A DNA stretch of 40,498 nt from a virus (IMGVR_UViG_3300042896_001363:1-40498), one strand, 5' to 3'; positions 3,660-40,498 are shown, counted from the stretch's first letter. The notes: generated by a model not told the origin, from the sequence alone. A program made the numbers and translations.

Positions 3660-6600
3660 TTAAATTTTGGCTTTGGCGGGCTGACCTTTGCCAACGGTGG
3701 CCGATACTTGGTAAATCTTCACGTACAAAAACTGCTGTAACGCGCCAAAGTCGGTGATCTGCTGCGCTGCTGTGTAAGGCGCTGAATTGGTGCTGGCCGT
3801 CAAGGTGCGTTTGATGGTGGCGTAACCCGCATCGGTAAAAATCTCAATCACATACGACTCGGACGCTTCACCCAATGGCGCCACAGGGATCAGTGGCCCA
3901 ACAAAGCGCGTCTCCAAGCGCGTGCACCGTAACCACTGGATCGTGATGGCCCCATCGGTTTCTGAGACATCTTTGTGCAAATGCACAGGCGCCAGGCAGC
4001 GCAGGTGAAAGGAATAGGTGTCGGCATCAACAAAGGTGCCATCGCTGTATTTTTGGTTGGCACTGACGGCCACCCAGGTTTTTGTAAGTCCAAGGGATGC
4101 CAGTGTTTCAGGGATGAATTGCACGCCGCCATTGGTTTGCAGCAAGGTAAATAGAGAGTAATAAATCGCTGGATAACCGATGGCAAATTCAGAATTGTTG
4201 CGGTAACGCAGCAAATTGCTCAATCGATAAGTCTGGGGGGCAATCAGCTCGGCTGTTTGAAATTGCAAAACCTCATACCGCAGCACCGCCAAATTTAAGG
4301 TGGGATCTTTCAGCAAATCCGCGCGAGTCACGCTTGACAAGGAGTCGGCCGCGGTCAGCACAATGTCCACCGTGTTAATTTGGTCCATGACATCGCCTTT
4401 CGTCCAGTTCTCCAAGGTTGTCTGGCTTTGGCCCATCACCGTCCGCTGTGTAAAGCGCGCCAATTGCTTGGGCGAGACGCTGTTGTCTTCAAACAGCGTG
4501 CAGCCGTTCCAGTCGGTCACATCACTGCCCACTGCCACGTACTCGCCAATCTGGTCGGCATAAACGTCGAGCACGGAAGGCAGGCTGTTGAGCACGCGCA
4601 ACAAAGTGGTGTCTGGGGCCAAAACGGTGGTTTGTGTACCATCAACGATGGCGCTAACGGCCCCAGCTTGAACCAAAACGCTGGCGTCTTCTTTAACCCC
4701 TTTGAAGGTCAACACCCCATCGGTTTCTTTGCGCGACACCATGCGCATGTCGTAATTCAAGCCATCGCGGTCCACCAGGCGCAACACATCGTCCGGCTCG
4801 TAGGCGTAGTATTTCCGCGGCAAACTGATCGTCACTTGCAAAGCTGCCAACACCTGGTTGAGCAGCAAGGTGTCGGCGATGGCTTTGGCCTCGCTGGCAG
4901 TAAAACTCAAAGGCAACTGCACCGCTTTGGTGTTGTCTTGTGTGCGCACCAGGCGGTCTGAGTATTGCGTGTCGGTCTGGTAGTCGCGCTCCGAACAGGT
5001 GTAAGTTAATGCAAATTTTGAGGGGATTTCCAGCTCATCGACTTGCGTCAGTGGCATGGGGTCGTGGCTGTCATTTTGTCCATCACTGGCCGACATCTCG
5101 GTGTACGGGATGGTGGCCGCCGCCGCTTGGCCACGATGGCGAAAATACAATTTGTCGCTCAAATGGCAATCAAAGAAATATGCCGTGCCCAATTGCTCCA
5201 ACAGCACGCGCACACTGGTGAGCTGGCCCGAGACCAAGCCGTGCACTTTTTTGCCCAGCGAATCCAGATCGCTGGCATCGTATTGCGTTGGTGTTAATCC
5301 AGCCCGTTGGCACAAGTCCTCCACCACTTCGCGCAAGGTGGGATCTGCGGGGGCAGACAAGCCTTCTGGAAAGGCAATGGGCTGGCTCGGAATACAAAAT
5401 TCTTTGTCTTTGGAAATGATTGTAAAAAGCTTGGTCTGCGTGTCAAAGCGGTAGTAATTCCCGTAATCCGCATCGACAATGAAGATGTTGATGCCGTCGG
5501 TGGCCATCTCCATGAATTGCATGTAAGACGGGACGGTCGGGTTCACGTAAGTCGCCACTTCAGTGAGCGTCACACTTGGCGGACTGGCGACCGTGGTGAC
5601 ATTGAATTCAATGACCTTGTTGTCGTACACCATGCCCAAGTAGGCTTTAAGACCGTCCACGCTGAAAATCAAGTCACTGGCGGTTCGTTCCAGGCTCGAA
5701 TTACCCACCCAAGCCTCAGTGACTGCATAGGTGACCATGTCAATGCGCCACAAAGAGTTGCAGCCAAAAAACAAAAATCGATCATCTGAGGTGAACCGGC
5801 CTTGCCCAGCGTCATTGCTGGCTGTTGTAATAAACACGGTATTTAGCAAAGTACCGGTGGCTGTGTCATAAATATGCATTGAGTTTCCGGTGTACCAATC
5901 ACCGAACGGCACTACCAAACGCGTGCCCGCATGGTTCAAATACATTTTCCAAAAAAACGGGTCATCGCCAGGTGTCACGGGTGGGATGGGTGCAAAGTCA
6001 CTCCAGGCCTTGGTCACGGTGTTGATGGCAACAACAAACGGATAATCAGTGATCAAAAAATAAACCGTGCCCCCGTCTGGTGAGATGCACATCCAGGCCG
6101 GGATGTTGTAAATGGGGTTAGTGCCCAAATCAACGGTGCTGATTACGGCCCCGGTGTCTTTGTTGACTTCCCAAACCAGGATTTGAAACGGGCTGGTGTC
6201 TTCGTAATAGCCAGCCACCCAAAAGTTGTTGGTGACCGGGTTGTAGACCATGGCGAATTCAAAATAATATCCGACCGGTGGGGGAATAAATTTCACCGTG
6301 CCGCCCGCTTTGGCCCCAAAGCCTTTGATGCCAAAACTGGACACGGTCCACATCGAGCCACTGCTGGCGCCTTGCGTCAGGACTTCAAAGGTCAAGTTGG
6401 GCAAAAAGCCAGAATTGCCCAGCCCGTAGCTTTTGAAAAAGATCGAGCCCCGGCCACGGTACGCGGGGGCATCCGGGTGGCCGTCCGGGTCAGGCATTTG
6501 GTCAGCGGCCCCGGTGTACACCGTGACGCGCGACCAGGTGCTGGTGTTGTCACTGGCATCGACCGAGGTGTTCACCGCGCCGTCGGTTTTGTTGTAGATC

Positions 6601-6989
6601 AGTTTGCCGTTGGACCAGATCCGCGTCACGTCGTGAATTTCCACGTCGGTCAGTAAGAAATGAAGATCCGCTTCATAGGTGTACGTGGTTTGGGTGGTAC
6701 TGCCGCCCTTGCCGCCCACCTCGGTCACCGTCACAATTTCGCGCTTCTCGCTGGCCCAAATCAACTGGCCCGAGATGCGCATGGTGCCCTGCAAATACGG
6801 GATGGCCGCACCATAAGCACTGCTAGAGACCGTGAGGTCTTCCAAACGTGGCCCTGTAATGTTTTGGTCAGGCGCAAAAGCGGCGCCCAATATCGTGCCC
6901 GCCATCCAGCCATAGCTTGCGCCGGCGGCAGTCGCCGTGATGCCATAACCGATTGCGGCTCCAGCCACAGCAAGAACAAGTTGTGCCAT
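3660..6989 (-). CDS. tail tip hub / host-specificity protein with beta-propeller insertion
   Basis: This 1109-aa protein occupies the gp15/J position of the tail tip. Residues about 1-210 form a membrane-like Ala/Gly start followed by the phage tail protein domain (PRLEDLTVSSSAYGAAIP, then a YEADLHFLLTDVEI region). Residues about 212-530 (bases 5400-6356) are different: repeated blades of the form TxTVYFL..PFVVAINTVTKAW and SMHIYDTATGTLLNT resemble YVTN/NHL beta-propeller repeats. Residues about 535-770 return to a hub domain (LREVVEDLCQRAGL, a DVLRLVDRDG strand), and the C-terminus is fibronectin-like beta. It should cap the tail tube, hold the fibre and start DNA ejection. The gene ends 12 bp before the fibre gene and starts 2 bp after the NlpC/P60 gene. 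Confidence 0.8.
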   Translation of the reverse strand: MAQLVLAVAGAAIGYGITATAAGASYGWMAGTILGAAFAPDQNITGPRLEDLTVSSSAYGAAIPYLQGTMRISGQLIWASEKREIVTVTEVGGKGGSTTQTTYTYEADLHFLLTDVEIHDVTRIWSNGKLIYNKTDGAVNTSVDASDNTSTWSRVTVYTGAADQMPDPDGHPDAPAYRGRGSIFFKSYGLGNSGFLPNLTFEVLTQGASSGSMWTVSSFGIKGFGAKAGGTVKFIPPPVGYYFEFAMVYNPVTNNFWVAGYYEDTSPFQILVWEVNKDTGAVISTVDLGTNPIYNIPAWMCISPDGGTVYFLITDYPFVVAINTVTKAWSDFAPIPPVTPGDDPFFWKMYLNHAGTRLVVPFGDWYTGNSMHIYDTATGTLLNTVFITTASNDAGQGRFTSDDRFLFFGCNSLWRIDMVTYAVTEAWVGNSSLERTASDLIFSVDGLKAYLGMVYDNKVIEFNVTTVASPPSVTLTEVATYVNPTVPSYMQFMEMATDGINIFIVDADYGNYYRFDTQTKLFTIISKDKEFCIPSQPIAFPEGLSAPADPTLREVVEDLCQRAGLTPTQYDASDLDSLGKKVHGLVSGQLTSVRVLLEQLGTAYFFDCHLSDKLYFRHRGQAAAATIPYTEMSASDGQNDSHDPMPLTQVDELEIPSKFALTYTCSERDYQTDTQYSDRLVRTQDNTKAVQLPLSFTASEAKAIADTLLLNQVLAALQVTISLPRKYYAYEPDDVLRLVDRDGLNYDMRMVSRKETDGVLTFKGVKEDASVLVQAGAVSAIVDGTQTTVLAPDTTLLRVLNSLPSVLDVYADQIGEYVAVGSDVTDWNGCTLFEDNSVSPKQLARFTQRTVMGQSQTTLENWTKGDVMDQINTVDIVLTAADSLSSVTRADLLKDPTLNLAVLRYEVLQFQTAELIAPQTYRLSNLLRYRNNSEFAIGYPAIYYSLFTLLQTNGGVQFIPETLASLGLTKTWVAVSANQKYSDGTFVDADTYSFHLRCLAPVHLHKDVSETDGAITIQWLRCTRLETRFVGPLIPVAPLGEASESYVIEIFTDAGYATIKRTLTASTNSAPYTAAQQITDFGALQQFLYVKIYQVSATVGKGQPAKAKI

Positions 6990-25930: not shown

Positions 25931-26011
25931 TTCAGGGGTTCGCTAACCCCTGAAGAATTGAAGGTTCCTGTCCTCAACATATGGCTTTCACGGGTTCGCT
26001 AACCCGTGAAA
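25931..26011. repeat. twin perfect stem-loops with the same apical sequence
   Basis: TTCAGGGGTT-CGCT-AACCCCTGAA (25931-25954, 10-bp stem) and an 11-bp stem with the same GGGTT-CGCT-AACCC head (25986-26011) have centres 56 bp apart. They lie between the stop of the Q-like gene and the late promoter. No U-run follows either, so they are not ordinary terminators. They could be protein-binding RNA or DNA sites, or put-like antitermination elements. Confidence 0.7.
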
Positions 26012-26017
26012 GTTGCT

Positions 26018-26410
26018 TCATTTTTTGGCTGCGTAATAGTTTCTAAAGATATTCTCAAACATCCGCAACCCGCGCAAATGCCTCTCTTGACATAACCGTG
26101 GCGGAATGCGTGCCAAGCGCAGCTGTGCCTCAATTGGTAAACGATGCGCAACATACAAAATTGTGAGCACCTTGCGCTCCTGCTCGGGCACCTTGGCCAG
26201 CGCCCGCTGACAGGCTAGCGCTTCATCAATGTGTTGAAGCATCTCCCGAGGTGCTCGGTCTTCATCGTCTTGGAAGCTGCGGTATTGCCCTTCTGCGCTA
26301 CCACAGCGTTGCCGGCGCAGGCGTTCCTTGGCCCAGCGCCCATAACGCGTCAAACGTTCATCGGCTTCCTGCAGGTTCAGCGGAATCAATGCCGCTAGGT
26401 TAACTCTCAT
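26018..26410 (-). CDS. Q-like antitermination / late-gene regulator
   Basis: This 130-aa protein resembles the small Q family of phi80-type phages (PF06530-like). It has LTRYGRWAKERLRRQR, a GSAEGQYRSF segment, HIDEALACQRALAKVPEQERKVLTILYV and a C-terminal helix-turn-helix-like stretch ending LRMFENIFRNYYAAKK. The IDxAL and YV.. spacing recalls a sigma-70 region 4 fold. Position supports the call: it is the last gene before a strong -35 promoter and a leader terminator, as Q is in lambda. It overlaps the PD-(D/E)XK gene by ATGA. Late RNA polymerase modified by this protein would read through terminators in the head and tail genes (inference). Confidence 0.6.
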   Translation of the reverse strand: MRVNLAALIPLNLQEADERLTRYGRWAKERLRRQRCGSAEGQYRSFQDDEDRAPREMLQHIDEALACQRALAKVPEQERKVLTILYVAHRLPIEAQLRLARIPPRLCQERHLRGLRMFENIFRNYYAAKK

Positions 26411-26817
26411 TGCGGCTCCCCCAATTCCATCTCAATTTCCCGTGCTATGGCTGCCCAGGCCGATACGCTGCCTTCCACCGTCCATTCGTAGTTATGCCAC
26501 TGCTGCGCGTGCTGGAGCCGTAGGTTGACCGCCAGTGGCCAGACTCCGCGCCACTCGCCGCGATCGAGCCGGTAAAACAGCACGGGCAATTCACTACCCG
26601 CTTGTTTCACGCATTGCCCCCACCACCCGGCAATCTCTGAGCGGGTCGCACTGGCGTAGCGTTTGATTTCGACCGACCAGCCCGGGATGCCAACCAGGTC
26701 GCTGTCCCCAGCCGCATTGCGCACGCGTCGCCGGACTTGCCAGCCGGTGTGGTCTTGGATCAGCGCGGCTGCTTCGCGCTCGCCGACTTGGCCTTTGGTG
26801 CGTTGCATGCGTCCCAT
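26407..26817 (-). CDS. PD-(D/E)XK endonuclease (resolvase-like)
   Basis: This 136-aa protein shows the PD-(D/E)XK core: Glu in KGQVGEREAAALI (residues 9-20), GDSDLVGIPGWSVEIKRY giving Asp38/Asp40 and the E50-x-K52 pair, then WWGQCVKQAG and LPVLFYRLDRGEWRGVWPL. It belongs to the small phage nucleases often annotated as putative PDDEXK or Holliday junction resolvase, and may trim branched DNA before packaging. A GTG lies just before the chosen ATG at 26817. The Shine-Dalgarno GGGGGTG is part of the octamer array at 26823-26945, so a protein bound there could also control this gene. Confidence 0.75.
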   Translation of the reverse strand: MGRMQRTKGQVGEREAAALIQDHTGWQVRRRVRNAAGDSDLVGIPGWSVEIKRYASATRSEIAGWWGQCVKQAGSELPVLFYRLDRGEWRGVWPLAVNLRLQHAQQWHNYEWTVEGSVSAWAAIAREIEMELGEPQ

Positions 26818-26822
26818 CACAG

Positions 26823-26945
26823 CACCCCCCCGGGGGATCGGGGGATACCGGGGGATGATCCAGCCCCTCTATAGAAATTTGTCATCTGCCAAATTCCCCC
26901 GCTCCGGTTAAACATCCCCCGTGATGCCCCGATCCCCCGGGGGTG
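26823..26945. repeat. inverted array of six CGGGGGAT boxes: candidate replication origin or operator
   Basis: Left arm: CGGGGGAT at 26831-26838, 26839-26846 and 26849-26856. Right arm, inverted: 26914-26921, 26924-26931 (one mismatch) and 26932-26939. Start-to-start spacings mirror each other (8 and 10, then 10 and 8). Flanking bases extend the arms to about 35 and 33 bp around a 55-bp AT-rich centre (26858-26912). The array lies right after the polymerase-primase-helicase gene and before the nuclease gene, as iterons do in several phage and plasmid origins. Confidence 0.65.
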
Positions 26946-26968
26946 TTTGCTTATTTTTTGAGCAAATT

Positions 26969-29900
26969 TCACAGTTCTGCCTCCTGAGTCGAAGACTGGA
27001 GCTGCCATTTGTTGGACTGACGCCCGCCGTCTACCTGTTTGACCACCAGCTTCAAACCACCTGCGATGCGGTTTTTATGCGCCCGCAACCAGTAACCCAC
27101 CTTGCTGCTGCTGACTGGGTCAGCGCATCCCGCTTGCTCCAAGGCATCCCGCAAGGCAAAGTTGCCACTCGCCCACAGCGCCAAATCACTGGCGCGGAAC
27201 TCGGAAATTCGTCCCGCCACCTTGGCGGTGACCACGGTCTTAATCGTGTCAAACACCATGCTGATCTCACCCGAACCGTCGTTGCTGTAGTCCACCGCTG
27301 CAACTGGGTCTTCCTCGCCCAGCCAGACCAACGCATCGCGCACCCGCCAGGACCAGTCCTCAAAGGAATCGAGCGGCGGCAGGTTCAAGGGCTGTGGATG
27401 CAAGGCGTAGGCCCGCAGCACCGTCAAGGCAGCGGTGATGAACTGCGCTCGGTGCAGTTTGATGTAGGTCGCTAAACTGGGGTGATCAAACACCACCTGG
27501 CGGTCTTTCAGCGACTCCACCTGCAATTGCAAGTCACAGACGATGGTGCGGCGAGCGTTGTCGCTGGCCAATGTGACGTTGTTGCCGGTCATCACCACCC
27601 GGGTCCGGTTGCGGAATTTCACCCGCTCCGATTCACCCAGCTTGCGGTCCGCGTAATCGTCCGAGGTGACGAACTGCGACAGCGCCGCACTTTTGATCTG
27701 GGCGCCATTGGGCAGGTTGTCGAACACCACCACCGGGTCCCCGGCCAGCAACACCGAGGTGAAGACCTTTTTCAGTTCTTCCTCGTTGCCGTTTGGCCAA
27801 GGGTGGGTGGTGGCATGGCCATAGGCAATCAGGTTGGCGATCGAGGCCATCAAGGTCTTGCCCGACCCAGCCATGCTGGCGGTGTAGAGCACCACCGGAG
27901 ACTTGGGCAAGGTGGGACGGGCCAATGCCGTCAGCACATCCGAAAGGAACACCGAGCGCGAGACCGCATCGGCAAACGGAAATTGCTTGACCAAGTCGCA
28001 CAGATCATTGAGCGCTGCTCGGGCTTCAGCCCAACTCGGCTGCAACGACAGCTGAGGAAAGTTCAGCGTTGGCGCGTAGTAGATACCGGTTTCATCGTCA
28101 TACCCGGGGGTGTCACAGACCGAGCCATCCACCCGCAGAAAGGGGGCGTTGGCCAAGGCCGTCAAGGGTCGGAAGGTCCAGTCATCGGTGCCGTCTTCCA
28201 GAGCACTGGCCACGTTGGCTGGGCAATCCACCACCTTGTAGTCATTTTTGCGAATGTCCCAGCGTTGGAACTCGGCTCGCTCGGTCAACTCGCGCACCAG
28301 CCAATTGCGCGTCACGGGCAACACGATGGGTTGGCTGCTCAAACGCGAAAGGCCATCGTGGATTTCCGCCCCTTGGCCAATGCGCACCAGGTACATGCCG
28401 CGCTTGAATACAACGTCATCCAGCAATTGGGCACATTGACGCATGACCGATGGCAGCAGACCGGGATCGATGTAAATCACGGGCTTGGATGAGCCGCCAG
28501 AACCTCCTCCCGCTGAACCGGCATTGCCACTGCCGCCACCGCCCTGCACTTCGGGATCGGGGTAATCGACCTCCTCACCAGCACCACCATCGTCCGGGTC
28601 CAAGAAAGTGAAATCCTCATCGTCTGGCACAGACGGCTGTGTAAACGGCAGTCGGGTGGGATCGATGCGGGCCACATAGATGCGGTGTTGAGGTGGTGTC
28701 ACCGTCTGGCCATGCTCGACCAACCAGCGGTATAGATCACGCGGGGTTTGATCGGCACAGTGCCCATGCAAGCACTTCCAAGTCCAGCTGCCGTCTTTGC
28801 GCACCTTGACGGCTGTGCCGTCATCCATGCCTTTGGTGTGCAGGTGGTGTTGATGGCAAGTGATGTCCCACCAGCCCGAGCCTTTTTGCTGTGCTGATTT
28901 GAGCAAACCTGCCGTCTGCAGTGCCTGAATCAAGGGATGCTCGCCCGATTGCTCGGCTGCTGCGGCTGGTAGTGCGTTGATCTGAGGTGCCTGCTCCAGG
29001 CTCTGACCGAACCACCCCGCCACCTCCTGCGCGGGGTACGCCAATTCCGGGCGCCAGCTCACCAGCCGGTTCTGCCAAGGCTGTCCCAGCGCCAGCTTGA
29101 GGTTGCGGCCCTGCGGCAACTTGCACAGGCGAGTGATGCCTTTGGCGCCTTGATCGGTCATCAGGAGCCCTTGGACTGGGGTCGCCAGCACCTGCTTGGT
29201 GAGAAAACTGGCCTGTGAAAGGTCCACCACCGGCACGCTCAGCCGGTAAAACCACTGGTGGTTGCCGGGAGATGTCTCGATGATGGCTGTAGGTTCACCA
29301 AACCCCAGCGTGCGCGGATCGATCTGCACCTTGGTACCGATGTCATCAAGCACCAGAAAGTGCAAGGCGTCAAAGAATTCGATCTGGCGGTAGTAGATGC
29401 CCTCCGCATCGCGGCGAAATGCTGACACGCAGGTGTAGTTCTGCCGCTGCGGGTCTTGGTATAGATCGCGTGAGTGCTCAATCGGACCTCCGCCCCACAT
29501 GCCCGCCCGGGCAAGCTCGTTTTTCGTGTCCGGCGGTGTGGTGTTGGAGCAGACAAACGCATCATCAAGCGCCGCCCCGAACATCAAGTGCAGAAAATCA
29601 TCGTTAGTCACTGACTCGGCATCGGTTGGCAAAGATTGGGCGCTCCCTTTATCTGCCACCACTCCTGATTCTGGACTCACTGGCTGCCCAGCCACCAATG
29701 GCTTCAACTCGTCTATCAAGTCATAGACCTTGATCCAGCCCTTTTCTTGCAGCTCGATGCCAGCTTTGCGTAGTCGCCGTAGCTCCGATTTGCCCAGACG
29801 CTGCCGGTCGTGGATTTCTCCAACGGCTTGGCCTTCGGTGCCAAAGCGCAACACCAGAGAGGCCTCACCCGTGACACCGACCGGCAGCGCCAGCACGCCT

Positions 29901-30727
29901 GAGGCTTTTGTCAGACTAACAGCCAGGCCACGGTCTCCCGAAAAGTTGTGTGGATTCTTGGGGGTGCCCTTGGCCGCTGCTTCGGTATCGATTGCGCCAT
30001 CGTTGAGGTCAGTGGCGGCACCCCCAATGCCCAGCACCTCAAGACCCAGCGCTTGGAACTGCTGCGCCAGTGCATTGTGGTGTGGGCTGTACGGCACATC
30101 GGTTTGCGCCAACATCAGCCGAGCCTGTTGTACATACCAATCCACGTCCACGTCGTTGACCGCTGGCCACTGGGTGTCGGCCAAATATGCAAATCCCGCT
30201 TCCAGTTGCTGCTCCGATGCAGCACCGGTGGCGTCCTTTTTGATGGCGGGCAAGTCGCCCCGCGTGGAGCGGTAGACGCGAATGAGCTTGCCCACCGCCT
30301 CACCCCCGACGCGCAGGCCACTGCCAGGGGCTGAGCGCATCTCGGTGAACAACAAAATCTCGCGCCGATCGGCGGCTGCGCGGATGAAGTCTTTTACCGG
30401 CGTGCCATCCAGCATCTGCTGGCCAATTGCCTGGCGCACCACCAGCGCGTCGTGGTTGGCCGAAATGCCGGGGTCGTGCGCCAACAAGCCTTTGCTTTTG
30501 ATCTCGGGTGGACCGTTGCCTTCGCGCACTACCTCGATGTAGGAGTTGATATTCAGACCCCGGTGGGCCAGCACTTCGGTGCGTTCCATCTGAAAGTCGA
30601 AAGCGGCCTCCCAATCGGCGATAACTTTCTCCACCCGGTCTTCGTCGCCCGGGGCGATCTGCAGCGCGATGGAGTCGGTGTTGAGCGAGACCACCCGGGT
30701 CTCATGTGTAGGCTCGGTCTTAAACAT
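26969..30727 (-). CDS. family B polymerase C-terminal part fused to primase and SF3 helicase
   Basis: About 1252 aa. It begins with family B motif C (SLNTDSI, residues 14-20) and the thumb (IKSKGLLAHDPG, then GTPVKDFI, and VDVDWYVQQA near 195). After an unassigned region (about 210-350) comes an archaeo-eukaryotic-type primase: FLVLDDIGTKV (motif I), SPGNHQWFYRL (motif II) and GITRLCKLPQGRN. A zinc-ribbon-like WDITCHQHHLH...WKCLHGHC follows (about 620-660). A Gly/Ser linker (about 729-748) leads to an SF3/AAA+ helicase with AGSGKT, VVVFDN, VMTGNN and Arg finger DNARR. The N-terminal polymerase half is the ORF upstream, overlapping by ATGTTTAA. The ATG has GGAAAG 8 nt upstream. Together they give a replisome in two polypeptides. 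Confidence 0.85.
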   Translation of the reverse strand: MFKTEPTHETRVVSLNTDSIALQIAPGDEDRVEKVIADWEAAFDFQMERTEVLAHRGLNINSYIEVVREGNGPPEIKSKGLLAHDPGISANHDALVVRQAIGQQMLDGTPVKDFIRAAADRREILLFTEMRSAPGSGLRVGGEAVGKLIRVYRSTRGDLPAIKKDATGAASEQQLEAGFAYLADTQWPAVNDVDVDWYVQQARLMLAQTDVPYSPHHNALAQQFQALGLEVLGIGGAATDLNDGAIDTEAAAKGTPKNPHNFSGDRGLAVSLTKASGVLALPVGVTGEASLVLRFGTEGQAVGEIHDRQRLGKSELRRLRKAGIELQEKGWIKVYDLIDELKPLVAGQPVSPESGVVADKGSAQSLPTDAESVTNDDFLHLMFGAALDDAFVCSNTTPPDTKNELARAGMWGGGPIEHSRDLYQDPQRQNYTCVSAFRRDAEGIYYRQIEFFDALHFLVLDDIGTKVQIDPRTLGFGEPTAIIETSPGNHQWFYRLSVPVVDLSQASFLTKQVLATPVQGLLMTDQGAKGITRLCKLPQGRNLKLALGQPWQNRLVSWRPELAYPAQEVAGWFGQSLEQAPQINALPAAAAEQSGEHPLIQALQTAGLLKSAQQKGSGWWDITCHQHHLHTKGMDDGTAVKVRKDGSWTWKCLHGHCADQTPRDLYRWLVEHGQTVTPPQHRIYVARIDPTRLPFTQPSVPDDEDFTFLDPDDGGAGEEVDYPDPEVQGGGGSGNAGSAGGGSGGSSKPVIYIDPGLLPSVMRQCAQLLDDVVFKRGMYLVRIGQGAEIHDGLSRLSSQPIVLPVTRNWLVRELTERAEFQRWDIRKNDYKVVDCPANVASALEDGTDDWTFRPLTALANAPFLRVDGSVCDTPGYDDETGIYYAPTLNFPQLSLQPSWAEARAALNDLCDLVKQFPFADAVSRSVFLSDVLTALARPTLPKSPVVLYTASMAGSGKTLMASIANLIAYGHATTHPWPNGNEEELKKVFTSVLLAGDPVVVFDNLPNGAQIKSAALSQFVTSDDYADRKLGESERVKFRNRTRVVMTGNNVTLASDNARRTIVCDLQLQVESLKDRQVVFDHPSLATYIKLHRAQFITAALTVLRAYALHPQPLNLPPLDSFEDWSWRVRDALVWLGEEDPVAAVDYSNDGSGEISMVFDTIKTVVTAKVAGRISEFRASDLALWASGNFALRDALEQAGCADPVSSSKVGYWLRAHKNRIAGGLKLVVKQVDGGRQSNKWQLQSSTQEAEL

Positions 30728-31967
30728 GGGCAAGGCTTTCCAGGGGTTGGGTCAGGCGGGCACGCTCGGCCAGTGCCAGCAGGCACAGCTGGCCGCTGAC
30801 GGTGATGGCGAGGAAGGCATCGGGGGAATACAGCAGCGAAAAGCCGAAGTTGTAGGCCCCGAAGGCACTGTTGAGCACCAGCTTCAAGGCGTTGGAGGTG
30901 GCTTTGTCACCCGCCTTTTTGGCTTGCAGGCGACGCTCGATCAAACGTCCATAGATGGCGTGGAACTGCGCCTCTTCCAAATGGGTGGGCGTGCAGTCGG
31001 GGTGCATGATGATGTGCGGGTACAGCGAGGCCACGTCGTAGCTCACGCCGCTGTAGTGGCAGGCGCTGTCCTTGGTGTGCACGCCGCCCAGGCCGAACGC
31101 GGCCTCCAGCCCGTCCTCTTCGGACAGTCGGATCACCTCCGGCCAGGGGCGGGTGAGAGGCTGGCGCACCCCGTCCACCACCGTGAACTCGGTGCCGTCG
31201 ATCGCGTCGGCGATTCGCTCCGCTTGGGTGCCCTGAATGCCTGCCCTCACCCACTCGGGCACGTAGAAGGTGAACACGCAGTTGCGCATGCGCTGCGCCG
31301 CCGCCCTGATGTCGGCCTGTTCCACTTCGGGGTTGGCCCGCAGGTACTCGGTGACGATGATGGTGGCCGCCACGTTGGCGGCGGTCTTCTTGGTCAGGCC
31401 AGGCAAATCAAACATGCGCTCCAGCACCAGCCGGGCCTGCACATCGCCCTCCACCGCTTGGCGCAGGGTCTCGGTGGCCACCAGGTCGTGCTCCAGGTAG
31501 CGGATCACCTCGGGCAACTGGGTGTCGGTGATCGGATGGTGCGGATCGAACGGCAGATCGACGATGGCCAGCCCCAGCCGTCCTTCGTAATCCTTCAGGC
31601 GTCCACGCGGGGTGTAATGCATCAGGTCCAACTCGTTGAAGTTGCACCGATCCACCCCGTAGCTCCGTGCCACCTGCCAGGCGGGCGCTTTGGTCGTGAT
31701 GATGTCCTGCGCCAACTGGTGTAAAAACGCGGGCTCGGCGCCATTGAGCGCGGCGTTCAGGATGTAGCTGTCGAAGCCGGAATTGTTGTAGCCGGTGAGT
31801 TCCCGCCCACCCCCCAGGCGCTGGTCGATTTCGGCAGCGGTGTCAGCGTCCAACGGTGCATCGATCACCACATGCTCAGCCGGCTGGCCCGGGGCCTTGA
31901 TGCCAAGGATGGTGCGGTTAACGGCAATTTCCATGTCGTAAACCAGCCGGGTATCAGGCTGCTGCAT
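30720..31967 (-). CDS. family B DNA polymerase, exonuclease and palm part (motifs A and B)
   Basis: This 415-aa protein has the three 3'-5' exonuclease motifs of family B polymerases: Exo I VYDMEI (Asp11, Glu13), Exo II GYNNSGFD (Asp66) and Exo III YLEHDL (Tyr157, Asp161). Palm motif A is SYDVASLYPHII (Asp311) and motif B is KLVLNSAFG (Lys362). It stops shortly afterwards at TAA, before motif C, which is encoded at the start of the next ORF. Alone it would lack a complete polymerase active site but keep the exonuclease. GGGGAGGTG 5 nt before the ATG is a strong ribosome binding site. It overlaps the helicase stop by 14 bp. Confidence 0.85.
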   Translation of the reverse strand: MQQPDTRLVYDMEIAVNRTILGIKAPGQPAEHVVIDAPLDADTAAEIDQRLGGGRELTGYNNSGFDSYILNAALNGAEPAFLHQLAQDIITTKAPAWQVARSYGVDRCNFNELDLMHYTPRGRLKDYEGRLGLAIVDLPFDPHHPITDTQLPEVIRYLEHDLVATETLRQAVEGDVQARLVLERMFDLPGLTKKTAANVAATIIVTEYLRANPEVEQADIRAAAQRMRNCVFTFYVPEWVRAGIQGTQAERIADAIDGTEFTVVDGVRQPLTRPWPEVIRLSEEDGLEAAFGLGGVHTKDSACHYSGVSYDVASLYPHIIMHPDCTPTHLEEAQFHAIYGRLIERRLQAKKAGDKATSNALKLVLNSAFGAYNFGFSLLYSPDAFLAITVSGQLCLLALAERARLTQPLESLAHV

Positions 31968-32814
31968 GGCTCACCTCCCCTTTGTCGAAGCGGTGGCGGA
32001 TGTCCAGCACGTCTAGGATGGCCCGCTCGCTGTCCTGCTTTGCTTCCAAGGCCCGCAGCGCCATGAGGTCGAGGCCTGCGTCGGCCACCAGGTTGACGAT
32101 CGACACCGTCTTGGTCTGACCCGAGCGCACCAAGCGAGCGTTGAACTGGGCTCGCTGCGCCCAGTCAAAGGAATGGGTGTGCCAAACCACGGTGCGTGAG
32201 CTGCCGTGCTGCAGGTTGATGCCGTGCCCCATGGCACTGGGCGCAGCCAGCAGCACCGGGATGCGGTCAGCGTTCCAGTCGGCGATCAGGCAGGCGCGTT
32301 CGCCCGGCGGCGTGCTGCCGACAAAGGCTTTTGCCTGACCGCGAAAACGTCGCAGCAAGGCCTCCACCTCGGCACGGTAGAACACCGCCACCAATACCGG
32401 CCCCTGTGTGCCTTCAATCAGATCTTGCAGCGCGTCCATGCGCGAACTCGACAACAAGTGGGCATGGTTGTCGCCCTCCCCGGCATACACCAGACCTGAA
32501 GTCAATTGGCGCAAGATAGCCAAAAATGCCCCTTCCGAAGGAGCTTGGCGTACCTTGCCATTGGGCAACTCCACCTCGTTGGTGGCCATAAAACGTTGAA
32601 TGCGCTGCCGGTGGGAGTCATCCCAGGCGAAAGGGTGAACGCTGTACAAAGGCTCAGGAATGCCCTTGGTGGCGTCTTCCAACTTAATGGCCACGGCGTG
32701 CTTGGCCAGTTCGTCGCGGATGCATTTTTCACTCTGGTGGTTTTTTGGGCGCCAGGAATACTCAGAGACCTGCACGAAATGGCGACTCCGCCAAGCGAAG
32801 AATTCTTTGCTCAT
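31954..32814 (-). CDS. SNF2-like helicase, C-terminal RecA domain as a separate ORF
   Basis: This 286-aa protein carries the second half of a phage SNF2-type helicase. The start MSKEFFAWRSRHFVQVS matches the segment that normally follows motif III in one chain. Later come GPVLVAVFYRAEVEALLRRF (motif IV region), APSAMGHGINLQHGSSRTVVWHT (motif V) and QRAQFNARLVRSGQTKTVSIV (motif VI with the arginine finger). The upstream ORF supplies motifs I-III. The ATG overlaps the preceding TGA as ATGA, and GGGGAG lies 8 nt before it, so translation can restart here. The two chains should assemble to form the ATPase site. The family usually acts in DNA remodelling or replication start. Confidence 0.8.
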   Translation of the reverse strand: MSKEFFAWRSRHFVQVSEYSWRPKNHQSEKCIRDELAKHAVAIKLEDATKGIPEPLYSVHPFAWDDSHRQRIQRFMATNEVELPNGKVRQAPSEGAFLAILRQLTSGLVYAGEGDNHAHLLSSSRMDALQDLIEGTQGPVLVAVFYRAEVEALLRRFRGQAKAFVGSTPPGERACLIADWNADRIPVLLAAPSAMGHGINLQHGSSRTVVWHTHSFDWAQRAQFNARLVRSGQTKTVSIVNLVADAGLDLMALRALEAKQDSERAILDVLDIRHRFDKGEVSHAAA

Positions 32815-33362
32815 TGCCAGAACTCCCCACCCTTGGAAACGATGCGCCCAGGCGACCAGCAGTCGATTGAACCGTTGGGGGTGGGCGTGCCTGAGAGCAG
32901 CCAGGTCGGCACATGCTCGGCCACCACATGCAAAGCCATAGTGCGGGTGGCGGTGGCGTTCTTGAAGAACTGGGATTCATCGACCACGATACGGCGCACG
33001 GGCATGACACTCCGGCGTTGGACCTCATGGGCAAACTTGATCAAGGTATCGGGGGTGCAGGTGACCAAGTCGGCGTGACCTTCAAACCACAGGCGGGCAC
33101 GCTCGGCGCCGGTGTAGTGGTGCGCCAGATCAAAGGTCAAGTGATGGGTATGACTCCAAGCGAGGGCCTCAGAGGGCCAAACGCTGTCGAGGATGATGGC
33201 GGGCGCCACCAGCAAGGTGCGGCGCGTCTGTTGGGAAATGGCTGTCAAGGTGGTGACGGTTTTGCCACTACCGGGTTGAGCGCCCAGCAGTTGGTAGTCG
33301 TGGCTAGCCAAGATGTTGGCGGCTTTGCGTTGCCATGAACGCAGTTGGTCGGGAGTGTGCAT
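32811..33362 (-). CDS. SNF2-like helicase, N-terminal RecA domain as a separate ORF
   Basis: This 183-aa protein contains the Q-like WQRKAANIL, Walker A QPGSGKT (29-35), motif Ia LLVAPAIIL, DEAH-type box VVDESQFFKN (Asp128-Glu-Ser-Gln) and motif III WLLSGTPTPNG. It stops soon after, in GGEFWQ, where normal-length relatives continue into the second domain. In a -1 frame the text would run on as AMSKEFFAWRS, but no slippery heptamer is present at the junction, so re-initiation is favoured over programmed frameshifting. AGGA lies about 9 nt before the ATG. The start follows an intrinsic terminator at 33380-33406 with no room for a promoter. Confidence 0.8.
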   Translation of the reverse strand: MHTPDQLRSWQRKAANILASHDYQLLGAQPGSGKTVTTLTAISQQTRRTLLVAPAIILDSVWPSEALAWSHTHHLTFDLAHHYTGAERARLWFEGHADLVTCTPDTLIKFAHEVQRRSVMPVRRIVVDESQFFKNATATRTMALHVVAEHVPTWLLSGTPTPNGSIDCWSPGRIVSKGGEFWQ

Positions 33363-33379
33363 GCTTTGGTCCTGTGGTG

Positions 33380-33406
33380 AAAAAAAGGGGCGGTTTTCAC
33401 CGCCCC
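33380..33406 (-). terminator. intrinsic terminator inside the replication operon
   Basis: On the minus strand a perfect 7-bp GC stem GGGGCGG/CCGCCCC (33387-33393 and 33400-33406, loop of 6) is followed by seven Ts (33380-33386). It lies 8 bp after the DUF2815 stop and 17 bp before the helicase ATG. Only partial read-through would express helicase and polymerase below the ssDNA-binding protein. Confidence 0.85.
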
Positions 33407-33413
33407 ACAGAAC

Positions 33414-34043
33414 TCAGGCTGCTTCGCCTGTGCCATCGTTGAAGCGCAGACGGCTGCGGTCGATGCGGCGCACGTTTGCAGTGGCACCGCTACCGCGCTC
33501 GATCTTGGTAATTCCTTTTTCAATCAGCCAGACACGACCAAGACTCAAACCGACCCCTTGGCTTTGGTTTGAATAACCATATGCAGAGAGCTGAACAACC
33601 ACCTCATCACCGCCGTTGATCTCGTCGGAGGCAATTTCGCTTTCATTTGGCCCCCACACGCAAACCGGTGGGTAGCCAGTTTTGGCTCGCACAACCATCC
33701 CGCTTGGTGTGCGGAAAACGGGATGTTTAAAGGCGAATTCCCCAGCAAGATTACGCTCGTTCGAGTCGCGCAGCGGGTTATGCGCACCTGGCGGCAGCTC
33801 GCGGCTACGGAAGGTTTGCGCACAGGCGTCACCCACCAGATCAATCAACGCTTGCTGATCCTCAGGGTCTTTAATAAGCAGCAAAGCGGTGTATTTGTCA
33901 CCGGATTTCGGATCGGGGGTTGAAAGCGAAGGGTAAGCGATGATCGCCTTGACCTCACAGACCGAAGGTGCTGCCTGGTTGGTCGAACCAACGCTGTGCA
34001 CAGCGTTGGAAACAACAGAAGATTTGAATGCCGGTTTGGTCAT
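33414..34043 (-). CDS. DUF2815 ssDNA-binding-like protein
   Basis: This 209-aa protein fits DUF2815, a phage family next to DUF2800 and DNA polymerases, thought to be an OB-fold single-strand DNA-binding protein. Recognisable parts are KAIIAYPSLSTPDPKSGDKYTALLLI, FKHPVFRTPSGMVVRAKTGYPPVCVWG and GGDEVVVQLSAYGYSNQSQGVGLSLGRVWLIEKG. The final ATANVRRIDRSRLRFNDGTGEAA is basic then acidic. The frame reaches 34139, but the ATG at 34043 has AAGG 8 nt upstream and the family start. The 130-bp gap before it holds an inverted repeat GCTGACA/TGTCAGC (34072-34095). A terminator follows, which would favour high yield of this protein, as expected for an SSB. Confidence 0.8.
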   Translation of the reverse strand: MTKPAFKSSVVSNAVHSVGSTNQAAPSVCEVKAIIAYPSLSTPDPKSGDKYTALLLIKDPEDQQALIDLVGDACAQTFRSRELPPGAHNPLRDSNERNLAGEFAFKHPVFRTPSGMVVRAKTGYPPVCVWGPNESEIASDEINGGDEVVVQLSAYGYSNQSQGVGLSLGRVWLIEKGITKIERGSGATANVRRIDRSRLRFNDGTGEAA

Positions 34044-34173
34044 GATGTAAGCCTTGAAAGTTTGGCAAGTTGCTGACACCGAATTCGCTGTCAGCACGCG
34101 GTGTCTTTTGATCACCCCGCCTTGATTCATACTTACCAAGCTTCAAAATTTCTCAGCGCATCATTCAAGTCGG

Positions 34174-34878
34174 TTACCAAACTGGGCACACGCCTTTTGC
34201 TGGACACCACACACAAGCCTCTTTACTCGGTGAGGGTTCCGTTTCAACTTGATCGGTGAGAGCAGCTTGCCCCATAACGTATTTTTCAAATGCCCGTAAT
34301 TCGGACATGTTGGTTTCCCAGACAGCCGGATTACTTCCCAAAACTGGAGGCTGTAGGATGGCCAAAATTACGCGTTCTGGCGTGAAGTCCACCAAGTCCA
34401 GACTACCCATGGCGTAACACATCAGCTGAGTGTTGTTTCGGACATCTACTCGACCGCGACCAGTTTTGAAGTCTCCGACCATCAAAATCCGATGGTGCGG
34501 GTCTGCACCGATCAGGTCAGCCGTTCCCCAAAAATCTTTTCGTCCAATACGCCGACCAGGATCGACGCGAACTTCGGTCACAAATTCAGCGAGTCTGTAA
34601 CGCGCCAGCGCCGTTCTGGCTGCAGCAACTCCTTGGTCAATGATCAAGCGTGCCCGCTTTTCGCCGAAGTCCAATCGCGAAAGTTCTTCAATTTCAATCG
34701 GATTTAAGTGCCCCTGGTTCAACAACAACCGCTCAAAAACAGTGTGCATTAATGTCCCCGCAGATGCTGCTGGACCCGACGCCCGCTCTGGCACCACATC
34801 AGACATGCGAACAGATGCTGGACACTGCATCCAACGACTCGAACTCGATGGACCCAACCTTGCATGTATACGGCTCAT
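34174..34878 (-). CDS. DUF2800 Cas4/RecB-like Fe-S nuclease
   Basis: This 234-aa protein has the four-cysteine layout of Cas4/AddB-type Fe-S nucleases: Cys19 (WMQCPAS) and the C-terminal cluster Cys222, Cys225, Cys231 (CVWCPAKGVCPVW). The PD-(D/E)XK residues are also visible: His45 (LMHTVFE), Asp121 (GTADLIG), Asp136-x-Lys138 (GDFKTG) and Gln151 (NTQLMCYA). The family is standard in phage replication modules next to DUF2815 and probably makes single-stranded ends for recombination-dependent replication. The gene follows the preceding ORF after 1 bp, with no clear ribosome binding site, suggesting coupled translation. Confidence 0.85.
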   Translation of the reverse strand: MSRIHARLGPSSSSRWMQCPASVRMSDVVPERASGPAASAGTLMHTVFERLLLNQGHLNPIEIEELSRLDFGEKRARLIIDQGVAAARTALARYRLAEFVTEVRVDPGRRIGRKDFWGTADLIGADPHHRILMVGDFKTGRGRVDVRNNTQLMCYAMGSLDLVDFTPERVILAILQPPVLGSNPAVWETNMSELRAFEKYVMGQAALTDQVETEPSPSKEACVWCPAKGVCPVW

Positions 34879-34879
34879 T

Positions 34880-35128
34880 TCAGGCCAACAAGCACTGAAG
34901 CCGATTAACGATCTCTTGCTCTTTCGGATTTAGCTGCTGATCCTGCCAATACAGAAAGTCCAAAAGTTCACGCGTAAGGGCAACGACTTGAAGTTGTCGG
35001 TCATATTCTTCAACCAACCACTCTTGCATAAGCTCGGGCAAAACACCTTGTAGCCGATAAATTTCACGAGGGGTAAAGCTTCCAAATTGCCGTTCAGGAA
35101 GAATGCAATTTTTGTCAAAGTTGATCAT
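34880..35128 (-). CDS. small unknown early protein (82 aa)
   Basis: I do not recognise this protein. It starts MINFDKNCILPERQFGSFTPREIYRLQG and is mostly helical and acidic, with LPELMQEWLVEEYDRQLQVVALTRELLDFLYWQDQQLNPKEQEIVNRL. The single Cys near residue 8 is the only one before a final CLLA. The longest frame begins at 35182; the ATG at 35128 has GGGGA 7-8 nt upstream and overlaps the preceding stop (ATGA, 35125-35128). It is translated directly before the DUF2800 nuclease, so a replication-accessory or regulatory role is possible. No motif supports a function. Confidence 0.55.
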   Translation of the reverse strand: MINFDKNCILPERQFGSFTPREIYRLQGVLPELMQEWLVEEYDRQLQVVALTRELLDFLYWQDQQLNPKEQEIVNRLQCLLA

Positions 35129-37298: not shown

Positions 37299-37862
37299 TC
37301 ACGCCTTGATCCCAAACATGCGCAAGTGCATCTTCAGCTCACTGACGCGCCGATAGAAGGTTGCGGTTGATCCACCAAAAGCACGGCACGCTGAGGCCAT
37401 GCTGTCATGAGCAATCAGCAATTCGAGCAGGTCAACCTGATCTAAACACATTGTTTGCACCGCCTTGCCCAAGTCATGTAACGCAATGGACATGCCTACA
37501 TGGTCGTCATCAACACTCCAGAACGGGATCACTCCGCCGTCTTCCAGCAGGTCGTAATGATCATCTGCTCCATCGTTGGCCGCCACGGTGGAAACAAACG
37601 TCAGGCGCATCTTGTCTTTTACGTACCGATCAAGCAGTTCGATGGCACGGTTCTTTGATACCACCCCCGTATATGTGCTTACGGCAGCCCTGGCTGGGTC
37701 GTAATGGGGCGCCTGCGCCAGCAGGTCGGTCAGCAATTCTTGGGTAATATCTTCGCGCTCTTCTCGGTTCATGCCCATTCGAGCGGCTAGTTTGTATGCA
37801 CGGGTCGCAGCAGCGTTTTGGGCGGCGCGAAGGTAGTCCGATGTGTAAGTAGCAGAATTCAT
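37299..37862 (-). CDS. sigma-70-like regulator, copy A
   Basis: This 187-aa paralogue of copy B has the same blocks (REEREDITQELLTDLLAQAPHYD, STYTGVVSKNRAIELLDRYVKDK, LTFVSTVAANDGADD, MASACRAFGGSTATFYRRVSELKMHLRMFGIKA). The N-terminal ten residues differ and the linker is acidic. The leader contains an inverted repeat CATGATCG/CGATCATG (37860-37867 and 37890-37897) that includes the start codon, and operator-like palindromes further up (37925-37978), so this copy looks more tightly regulated than copy B. The ribosome binding site is weak (AGG about 11 nt upstream). Two sigma-like genes in one prophage suggest a duplicated control step; competition or sequential action are both possible. Confidence 0.65.
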   Translation of the reverse strand: MNSATYTSDYLRAAQNAAATRAYKLAARMGMNREEREDITQELLTDLLAQAPHYDPARAAVSTYTGVVSKNRAIELLDRYVKDKMRLTFVSTVAANDGADDHYDLLEDGGVIPFWSVDDDHVGMSIALHDLGKAVQTMCLDQVDLLELLIAHDSMASACRAFGGSTATFYRRVSELKMHLRMFGIKA

Positions 37863-39073: not shown

Positions 39074-39385
39074 ATGGAGCCGAATCTAAAACCGATCTTG
39101 ACCGCCCAGGAAGTAGCCGAGCTGCTGTGCTGCAGCGTCAAGACCGTGGAGAACCATGCGCGGGCTGGCAGCATCCCCGGCGCCAAATTTGGCGACGGCT
39201 GGGTCTTTTCGGCCGACTTGGTGATCGAAGCCGTCAAAACCATCAGTCAGCAAGAAGCGGCAGAACGCGCCCAGCCCCAACGCAAGGCCAAGGGCTTCAA
39301 GGTAATGGAAAACACCCAGCGCAAGCCGCCAGGCATGAAACACCTGTCAGAAGAAGCGATCCGACAAATCCTCACCCCGCAGTGA
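39074..39385 (+). CDS. excisionase-like HTH protein
   Basis: This 103-aa protein has an excisionase/MerR-like winged HTH (HTH_17): LTAQEVAELLCCSVKTVENHARAGSIPGAKFGDGWVFSADLVIEAV (about residues 9-54). A basic, Gln-rich tail follows (QQEAAERAQPQRKAKG). It is the only plus-strand gene. It converges on the integrase, and the two coding regions overlap by 39 bp (39347-39385), so strong expression of one could interfere with the other. It would bend attachment-site DNA and favour excision, or may act as an early regulator. No strong Shine-Dalgarno is visible; the operator-like palindrome directly before the ATG suggests transcriptional control. Confidence 0.75.
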   Translation: MEPNLKPILTAQEVAELLCCSVKTVENHARAGSIPGAKFGDGWVFSADLVIEAVKTISQQEAAERAQPQRKAKGFKVMENTQRKPPGMKHLSEEAIRQILTPQ

Positions 39386-40498
39386 GGCGTAGCGCAAAAA
39401 CATATCGGTCTTGGTCCAGCCCATGATCTTGCAAATTTCCAGCTCACTCCACATCCAGCCGTTGTCCCCTTTGTTGCGCATGGTGGCCCAACGGCAGGTC
39501 GCCTCGTGGCGCAAGTCGTGCTCGGTGAAGTCGGGCACCCCAGCGTAGCTAAAAAGGGTTTTAAAGCGGCTAGACAGTGCGCTGGTGACTCTGCTCAAGT
39601 TGACAGGGTCACCGTCCCAAAACGGAAAGAGAAAACCCTTTTTGCCAGCACAACGGGCACGCAACTTTTCGCGCAAAACGGGCACCACCGGCACCAAACG
39701 AGGCTTGATCACACCGCCATGGCCTTTGGTGCCCCGCACGTGCAGAAGCCCCTTGCCCTGATCAAACTCCTCGCAGCGCAGCCAATAGGCCTCTCTGAGA
39801 CGCAGACCCGTGTTCAAGATCAAGTCAAACAGCAAGGTTAAATCCTCATCGATGGCCAAGGTCCTTTGCCGGTCTGCGGCTTTGATGCCTGCCAACGCAT
39901 CGCGAATTTTCTGCTCCTCACCGGGGGCCAATCGGCGGTCGCGTTTGGTGTCTTTTTTAGGTTGCTTGCCGTTTTCCACCAAAGCAGCGGCTTCTTTGGC
40001 CGTGTAAACGCTGTAGCCCCTTGGCATGACGCGCAAGGGATTCACGGGAGCGGACTGATCCGCTGGGGTGGTCTTGCGGTTGTGCCAGTCGATCACGCGG
40101 GCCAGCGATTCCACCCGTTTGCGGATTGAGCCGGGGGCCAGATGCAAGTCCAATTTGAGTCTGGACACCCAGATGTCAGCCCAAGCGGCGTTGATCTTGT
40201 CTACGGTGACTTGTCCCACCTCGTCTTGAATCCGGGCCAAGGTGGCCAGATCAGACTTGGCCGGGCCTGGTGAGCTGAGCCTGTAGTTTTCGATCAACGT
40301 GCTGATCTTGTGACCGCTGCGCTTTTGCGTTGGCTCCACCAAGTCCAGCGGCACCACACCCCGCTCCAAAAAGCTGAGCATGTAGGCTTGGTATTTCTCC
40401 GCCTCGGACTTGGTCGCGAAGGTGGCGAAGTGTTTGCGGGGCAGGAGTTTGTTTTCGAGACGAACCTGCCATTTGTCTCGGTGTTGGTGAATTGCCAT
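39347..40498 (-). CDS. int: tyrosine-family phage integrase
   Basis: This 383-aa recombinase has an N-terminal Arm-type region (KWQVRLENKLLPRKHFATFATKSEAEKYQ), a core-binding domain (about 65-145) and a catalytic domain with the expected residues: Arg233 (TGLRLRE), Lys258 (RGTKGH), His327 and Arg330 (EHDLRHEATCR), Trp361 in the second-His position (MGWTKTD) and the nucleophile Tyr370 (FLRYASL). It inserts and removes the prophage. The start codon is at the very edge of the window (40496-40498), so no attachment site can be seen. The Trp-for-His change is known in this family. It is read towards the phage genes and overlaps the convergent excisionase gene. Confidence 0.9.
   Translation of the reverse strand: MAIHQHRDKWQVRLENKLLPRKHFATFATKSEAEKYQAYMLSFLERGVVPLDLVEPTQKRSGHKISTLIENYRLSSPGPAKSDLATLARIQDEVGQVTVDKINAAWADIWVSRLKLDLHLAPGSIRKRVESLARVIDWHNRKTTPADQSAPVNPLRVMPRGYSVYTAKEAAALVENGKQPKKDTKRDRRLAPGEEQKIRDALAGIKAADRQRTLAIDEDLTLLFDLILNTGLRLREAYWLRCEEFDQGKGLLHVRGTKGHGGVIKPRLVPVVPVLREKLRARCAGKKGFLFPFWDGDPVNLSRVTSALSSRFKTLFSYAGVPDFTEHDLRHEATCRWATMRNKGDNGWMWSELEICKIMGWTKTDMFLRYASLRGEDLSDRFF

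Follow-up and report, generated by a model that had tools for sequence, protein, structure and literature searches.

Whether a DNA polymerase can be encoded with its active site divided between two polypeptides, one of them also the primase-helicase, is the question raised by a locus in IMGVR_UViG_3300042896_001363, a 40,498-nt stretch of viral DNA, called the window here. Two minus-strand open reading frames (ORFs) at 26969-31967 form one unit of family B DNA polymerase (PolB), primase and helicase. The original prediction, made from the window, had described these ORFs as a two-ORF replisome unit in which a PolB thumb is fused in frame to a primase-helicase. The unit proved to be real, since both ORFs were confirmed, their parts were identified by family scans, and the arrangement recurs in three relatives (L005, L007 and L008); the in-frame fusion was likewise confirmed in ORF2. 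What the prediction overlooked is that the polymerase active site is itself shared out between the two chains.

A polymerase divided inside the palm and fused to a primase-helicase

ORF1 (30720-31967, 415 residues) encodes the N-terminal part of the polymerase, with the 3'-5' exonuclease, palm motif A and the fingers with motif B. ORF2, read from its conserved ATG (26969-30727, 1252 residues, giving 1667 for both ORFs), encodes the C-terminal part, a mid piece, an archaeo-eukaryotic primase (AEP), a Cys/His site, a linker and a superfamily 3 (SF3) helicase; an alternative TTG start would give 1254 residues (26969-30733). The two polymerase parts match phrog_1252 ('DNA polymerase', 663 positions) in succession, with residues 5-404 of ORF1 on profile positions 52-446 (E value 7e-68) and residues 11-215 of ORF2 on positions 449-655. 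Because the match continues from one ORF into the next, the ORFs are two parts of one PolB. Motifs Exo I, II and III, A, B and C and the K-x-K-G motif of the thumb are all present in order, spread over the two ORFs. Motif A (DVASLYP, 31017-31037), with catalytic Asp 311, and motif B (KLVLNSAFG, 30858-30884) lie in ORF1, while motif C (NTDS within SLNTDS, 30671-30682), with the second catalytic aspartate, stands 18 residues after the ORF2 ATG. The C-terminal part, delimited by phrog_1252 positions 449-655 and by the model described below, extends over 30059-30727 and comprises the motif C hairpin and the thumb. In a 55-row PolB alignment the nearly invariant columns, in read-through numbering, are D11 and E13, N61 and D66, Y157 and D161, D311, K362, N366 and G370, N429, T430 and D431, and K490, K492 and G493. 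As read from these motifs, the PolB is divided inside the palm, the break falling after motif B and before motif C, and each chain carries one of the two catalytic aspartates. In four of four members it is split in this way rather than borne on a single polypeptide. The ORFs meet in an 8-nt overlap at 30720-30727 (ATGTTTAA), which holds the ATG of ORF2 and the TAA stop of ORF1.

Structure prediction, which had been proposed as a check, gave a mixed result: the polymerase was modelled well, the mid piece plus primase poorly. AlphaFold2 returned a complete PolB for the +1 read-through of the two ORFs (predicted local distance difference test (pLDDT) 88.5, predicted template modelling score (pTM) 0.87, from 55 sequences). 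The read-through was joined across the overlap at the four-letter word CCCC, which is unique; GTTT, AGCC and CAAC, which recur in frame, were dropped. In the model the junction sits between the helix that follows motif B (382-405) and the motif C hairpin (424-436), and junction residues 409-417 form an unstructured loop, the longest internal stretch below pLDDT 50 and the part of the palm interior with the lowest confidence. The best Foldseek matches of the model were E. coli Pol II, Pol alpha and archaeal PolBs (E values down to 1e-13, probability 1.0), enzymes that were also retrieved by the sequence profile. The model thus indicates that the polymerase parts of ORF1 and ORF2 are compatible with one PolB fold.

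Beyond the thumb, ORF2 continues into the mid piece of about 150 residues (ORF2 226-375; 29609-30058), which is specific to the lineage and gave no confident fold. It is conserved, at 46-74% identity and a ratio of non-synonymous to synonymous differences (pN/pS) of 0.24-0.53; it matched no Pfam or PHROG family, and a search of IMG/VR returned just the known member. The AEP primase (28898-29608; LDDIGTK, ETSPGNHQ, RLCKLPxGxNLK) scores above the cut-off for PF16793 (RepB_primase) and also matches phrog_4861 (primase), and its catalytic residues DD, ETS-GN-Q and R-LP-N-K are invariant in the primase alignment. The AlphaFold2 model of mid piece plus primase was poor overall (pLDDT 50, pTM 0.43, with the mid piece itself below 50), so its Foldseek matches were used for the AEP part alone; these were cyanophage S-2L PrimPol (6zp9), RepB' (3h20) and also 3h25. 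The domain thus has the DxD-like, (S/T)-G-N-x-Q and R-x-P motifs of an AEP, together with an AEP fold as far as a moderate-confidence model can give one. It is followed by a zinc-ribbon-like Cys/His site (C626..H632..C654-x-H-x-H-C659, 28727-28873), conserved in the ORF2 and primase alignments, and by a Gly/Ser-rich linker (28484-28546), which varies in length and sequence in the ORF2 alignment. The SF3-type (DUF5906) helicase closes the ORF (26972-28480; phrog_29234, E value 2.7e-79), with Walker A (MAGSGKT), Walker B (VVVFDN), TGNN and ARRT. Its match to PF19263 (DUF5906/SF3, E value 1.4e-4) lies below the cut-off; Walker A, Walker B, the motif C asparagine and the arginine finger of SF3 helicases are conserved in the ORF2 alignment. 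The earlier domain calls are correct. In the alignments the exonuclease, polymerase, primase and helicase all keep their catalytic motifs intact.

Conservation and origin of the split

Three more full copies of the unit were found, in L005 (IMG/VR 3300020205_003425), L007 (a Comamonadaceae metagenome-assembled genome (MAG)) and L008 (the cultured strain Limnohabitans radicicola JUR4). These are independent assemblies, and they carry an identical two-ORF plan, with break, overlap and fusion at matching places. ORF1 has equal length throughout and is 94% (L007), 88% (L008) and 68% (L005) identical to that of the window; the corresponding values for ORF2 are 83%, 80% and 68%. The junction DNA reads CATGTTTAA or CATGTTTGA, and the 8-nt ATG/stop overlap is present in every member despite the differing stop codon (TAA or TGA; consensus ATGTTTRA). 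All four members share the 7-mer CATGTTT without change, the stop stands at a constant place, and the ATG in the overlap is the sole start codon of ORF2 common to all. Nei-Gojobori counts, made with our own script, gave a pN/pS of 0.09-0.32 for ORF1 and 0.18-0.29 for ORF2 as whole ORFs, and synonymous sites are saturated between the window and L005, the most distant member. The recurrence of the split, the low pN/pS and the saturation argue together for long-term maintenance by selection. The PolB motif and thumb residues are under selection as strong as that on the other domains.

Members were sought in IMG/VR, with single proteins and with alignments, in GTDB genomes, phages and plasmids, and in genomes around the Limnohabitans strain (400 of its family, 399 of its order and 90 of its genus). 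These searches found no full member beyond this lineage, the extra matches being the fragments L006 and L009, and no phage record covers 80% of ORF2. The unit occurs in a small viral group that infects freshwater bacteria, namely a lineage of temperate siphoviruses of Comamonadaceae. One of the fragments, L009 (3848-5833), is a short beta-proteobacterial MAG contig that carries the primase-helicase part from about ORF2 residue 384, without the polymerase part and adjoining an integrase-like gene on the opposite strand; it may be a recombined remnant or a mis-joined contig.

More distant relatives have an undivided polymerase. Motifs B to C lie in one ORF in all 80 IMG/VR relatives collected with the PolB alignment, and a single-gene PolB is found in Pseudomonas phage JG054, Escherichia phage slur01, Acinetobacter phage IMEAB3, Paenibacillus phage Wanderer, Xanthomonas phage Langgrundblatt1, Alteromonas phage R7M and others. 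A spread sample of 40 of the 901 phage records held no second case of the split, its matches all being single-piece. In the tree the four split PolBs form one clade with 100% support in the Shimodaira-Hasegawa-like approximate likelihood-ratio test (SH-aLRT); since this clade sits on a long branch, the tree does not fix its exact sister among the single-ORF PolBs. Exactly at the break, where unsplit enzymes have a turn of 2-4 residues, there are about 15-18 extra, poorly conserved residues that form the new chain ends, C-terminal in ORF1 and N-terminal in ORF2. By these sequence comparisons the break is a derived state relative to the one-gene phrog_1252 PolB. The original prediction had reckoned with the outcome that relatives would show separate polymerase and primase genes and that the fusion was an assembly error. 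All the more distant relatives do have separate genes, but for the direct relatives this explanation fails against three independent assemblies.

Expression, assembly and competing explanations

We propose, and regard as probable, that the product of the unit is a self-priming replicase of two chains whose synthesis is translationally coupled. In the ancestor of the lineage, a single phrog_1252-family PolB gene would have been broken in the short turn that leads from the palm helix behind motif B to the motif C strand, and its C-terminal part would have been joined, via the new mid piece, to an AEP primase-SF3 helicase that had stood alone. One mRNA would encode both ORFs, and translation of ORF2 would begin by termination-reinitiation, at its ATG in the overlap with the end of ORF1. 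ORF1 would give the exonuclease, the motif A aspartate and the fingers, and ORF2 the motif C aspartate, the thumb, the primase and the helicase. Because each chain brings one of the two metal-binding aspartates, we propose that the chains pair non-covalently, as a heterodimer, into one complete PolB. The assembled particle would make its own primers and unwind its own template, so that polymerase activity would arise only where the primase-helicase chain is. The self-priming replisome of the original prediction is in this respect a reasonable inference. We lean, by a small degree, towards the stronger form of the proposal, an obligate heterodimeric replicase whose active site would be completed only when the primase-helicase docks, which would tie synthesis to priming and unwinding.

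The initiation signals agree with this proposal in part. The start of ORF1 has a very strong Shine-Dalgarno sequence (-12.2 kcal/mol) and the ORF2 ATG of L005 a good one (-7.1 kcal/mol). Several points weigh against the two-chain replicase. The ORF2 ATG has no recognisable Shine-Dalgarno sequence in the window, L007 and L008 (-3.3, -3.3 and -0.9 kcal/mol), so that separate initiation of ORF2 would rest on coupling to ORF1. The structural model is of a single read-through chain rather than of a two-chain complex, and speaks to compatibility, not to assembly; the AEP region was modelled at moderate confidence, and the mid piece is without a known fold. There are four full members only, three of them closely related. 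Taken together, these Shine-Dalgarno strengths and the stop-start overlap point to termination-reinitiation.

The same features could be read as a programmed +1 frameshift at the overlap, which would yield one polyprotein of about 1,660 residues and leave the polymerase not truly split. The ORFs do stand in a +1 relation around an invariant 7-mer, ORF2 lacks its own Shine-Dalgarno sequence in three of the four members, and a complete PolB fold is predicted for the read-through. However, no shift-prone codon is conserved: the shared CAU GUU would re-pair badly with AUG/UUU in the +1 frame, and the better candidate, GCC-CAU with a possible slip from GCC to CCC, is missing from L005 and L008. Across the four members no conserved slippery codon with a stimulatory element was found; a Shine-Dalgarno-like element occurs only in L005, at initiation spacing and not at the short spacing of the release factor 2 (RF2) +1 site. 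The ATG, moreover, is conserved, and the superfluous, variable junction residues are what would be expected of new chain ends. We therefore consider a frameshift unlikely. Still less likely, in our estimate, is that no polymerase is formed at all, with ORF1 serving as an exonuclease, ORF2 as a primase-helicase with a PolB remnant, and a host polymerase copying the phage. A divided palm works only if the chains assemble, as they are predicted to do; yet motifs A, B and C and the thumb K-x-K-G are kept in all four members under selection matching that on other domains, and in a remnant motif C and the thumb would be lost first.

A one-base difference in a single genome would look much like the split, which would then come down to a mistake in sequencing or assembly, or to a fresh frameshift in a gene undergoing decay. 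The split is, however, present in four independent assemblies, including that of the cultured Limnohabitans strain, with differing stops (TAA, TGA), saturated synonymous divergence, low pN/pS and the extra junction residues. An arrangement kept by selection over so long a time excludes both error and decay, to which we give practically no weight, and the relatives with a matching split rule out an error of sequencing or assembly. A further explanation concerns origin and is compatible with the two-chain replicase: the break may be a scar left by an intein, an intron or a homing endonuclease that has since gone, and not a simple fission. Other split PolBs have been ascribed to such elements, namely PolB3 of Methanobacteriales (PMC4104785) and possibly gene 43 of Aeromonas phage 25 (PMC2988022); the SNF2 helicase, a second enzyme of the operon, is also split. 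Neither site, however, holds intein, intron or endonuclease sequence, the overlaps being 8 nt (PolB) and 4 nt (SNF2), and the PolB break lies about 15 residues before the DTDS intein site, not at it. We see a scar as possible, though rather doubtful.

Genomic context and comparison with known systems

An integrase (39350-40498), a tape-measure protein, a major head protein and a terminase are also encoded in the window, from which we take it to be a temperate siphovirus. The replication operon has the order exonuclease (DUF2800), single-stranded DNA-binding protein (SSB), SNF2 helicase, PolB unit, RusA-like resolvase. The SNF2-type helicase that adjoins the PolB unit (31954-33362, minus strand; phrog_62) is split into a RecA1 half (32811-33362; phrog_62 positions 696-863) and a RecA2 half (31954-32814; positions 872-1134). 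The break falls exactly between RecA1 and RecA2, at residue 183, with a 4-nt ATGA overlap (TGGCAATGA), in all four members (L005 ~5390-6783, L007 5372-6780, L008 ~5369-6774), whereas the SNF2 helicase of Lactococcus phage 1706 is one 418-aa protein. With two fissions conserved in a single operon, the lineage seems to tolerate or favour the splitting of replication enzymes. Among the scanned operon proteins (window 26000-35000) none matched a sliding clamp, although many single-ORF relatives of the PolB have a processivity-factor gene directly upstream. As separate observations, a 187-aa protein of the window (37302-37862, minus strand) weakly matches phage RNA polymerase sigma factors (phrog_1740, E value 1e-5); and gp75 of phage 1706, a DNA phage, is a 1029-aa gene (L139 22083-25172) annotated 'RNA-dependent RNA polymerase'.

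The original prediction named no known case of a family B polymerase fused to a primase-helicase. A union of PolB, AEP primase and helicase is in fact a class that has a name, HelPrimPolB (Kazlauskas et al. 2020, PMC7544198), and that has been characterised biochemically (GP55, PMC12205980), although its order is the opposite one. GP55 of Lactococcus phage 1706 has been shown to have all four activities in vitro and makes DNA de novo (PMC12205980). The likeness lies in the union of an exonuclease-bearing PolB, an AEP primase and a helicase (SF3 in HelPrimPolB), and phage 1706 also has an SSB, an exonuclease and an SNF2-like helicase. HelPrimPolB and GP55, however, run Hel-Prim-PolB in one chain (phrog_4210, 1304 positions, to which both GP55 and Pippin15 gp56 belong), whereas the unit described here runs PolB-Prim-Hel over two chains that divide the palm, ORF1 being a separate chain unless a frameshift joins both. 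ORF2 has no phrog_4210 match; GP55 matches phrog_1156, phrog_864 and phrog_1829, and the ORF2 primase-helicase the different families phrog_29234 and phrog_4861. In BLAST the ORF2 primase and helicase showed no significant similarity to GP55, only the PolB exonuclease part aligning (E value 1e-11). Domain order and sequence therefore rule out membership in HelPrimPolB. It is an independent fusion: the order is reversed, the primase-helicase comes from a different family, and the PolB matches phrog_1252 from end to end.

Each part has closer relatives that stand alone. The single-ORF phrog_1252 PolBs (Queuovirinae such as slur01, JG054; Lokivirus IMEAB3; Langgrundblatt1; others) share the family over the full length of the read-through (E value 4.5e-97), but are uninterrupted, measure 565-729 aa in the phages checked and are unfused to primase or helicase. 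The stand-alone Comamonadaceae primase-helicases L025, L027 and L030 (phrog_29234; 861-883 aa) share order and family with ORF2 at about 30% identity, but have no PolB part. In chain number there is a likeness to gene 43 of Aeromonas phages 25 and 44RR, split into 43A and 43B; the phage 25 parts co-purify and are polymerase-active (PMC2988022), a precedent which shows that two PolB fragments can work together. That enzyme is a T4-type PolB whose parts are separated by an endonuclease gene or spacer, and it has no primase-helicase fusion. Methanobacteriales (PolB3, cited in PMC4104785) and Nanoarchaeum equitans have an archaeal PolB in two genes; these splits are ascribed to intein events and come with no primase-helicase fusion, and Nanoarchaeum could rejoin the parts by an intein.

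How a polymerase, a primase and a helicase stay in step is a question posed by multi-enzyme replicases, GP55 among them; the coupling of priming, unwinding and synthesis suggested here has been shown biochemically for the one-chain GP55 (PMC12205980). The lineage would be a natural second solution, of independent origin, with the domains in reverse order and the active site of the polymerase cut through; if so, copying of the viral DNA would depend on the pairing of the halves. A further suggestion is that the family B palm can withstand being broken between motifs B and C. The unit also offers a ready two-plasmid system for the assembly of a split PolB and for polymerase activity conditional on a primase-helicase partner. 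Split PolBs are known, and so are helicase-primase-PolB fusions; their combination is, as far as we have found, new.

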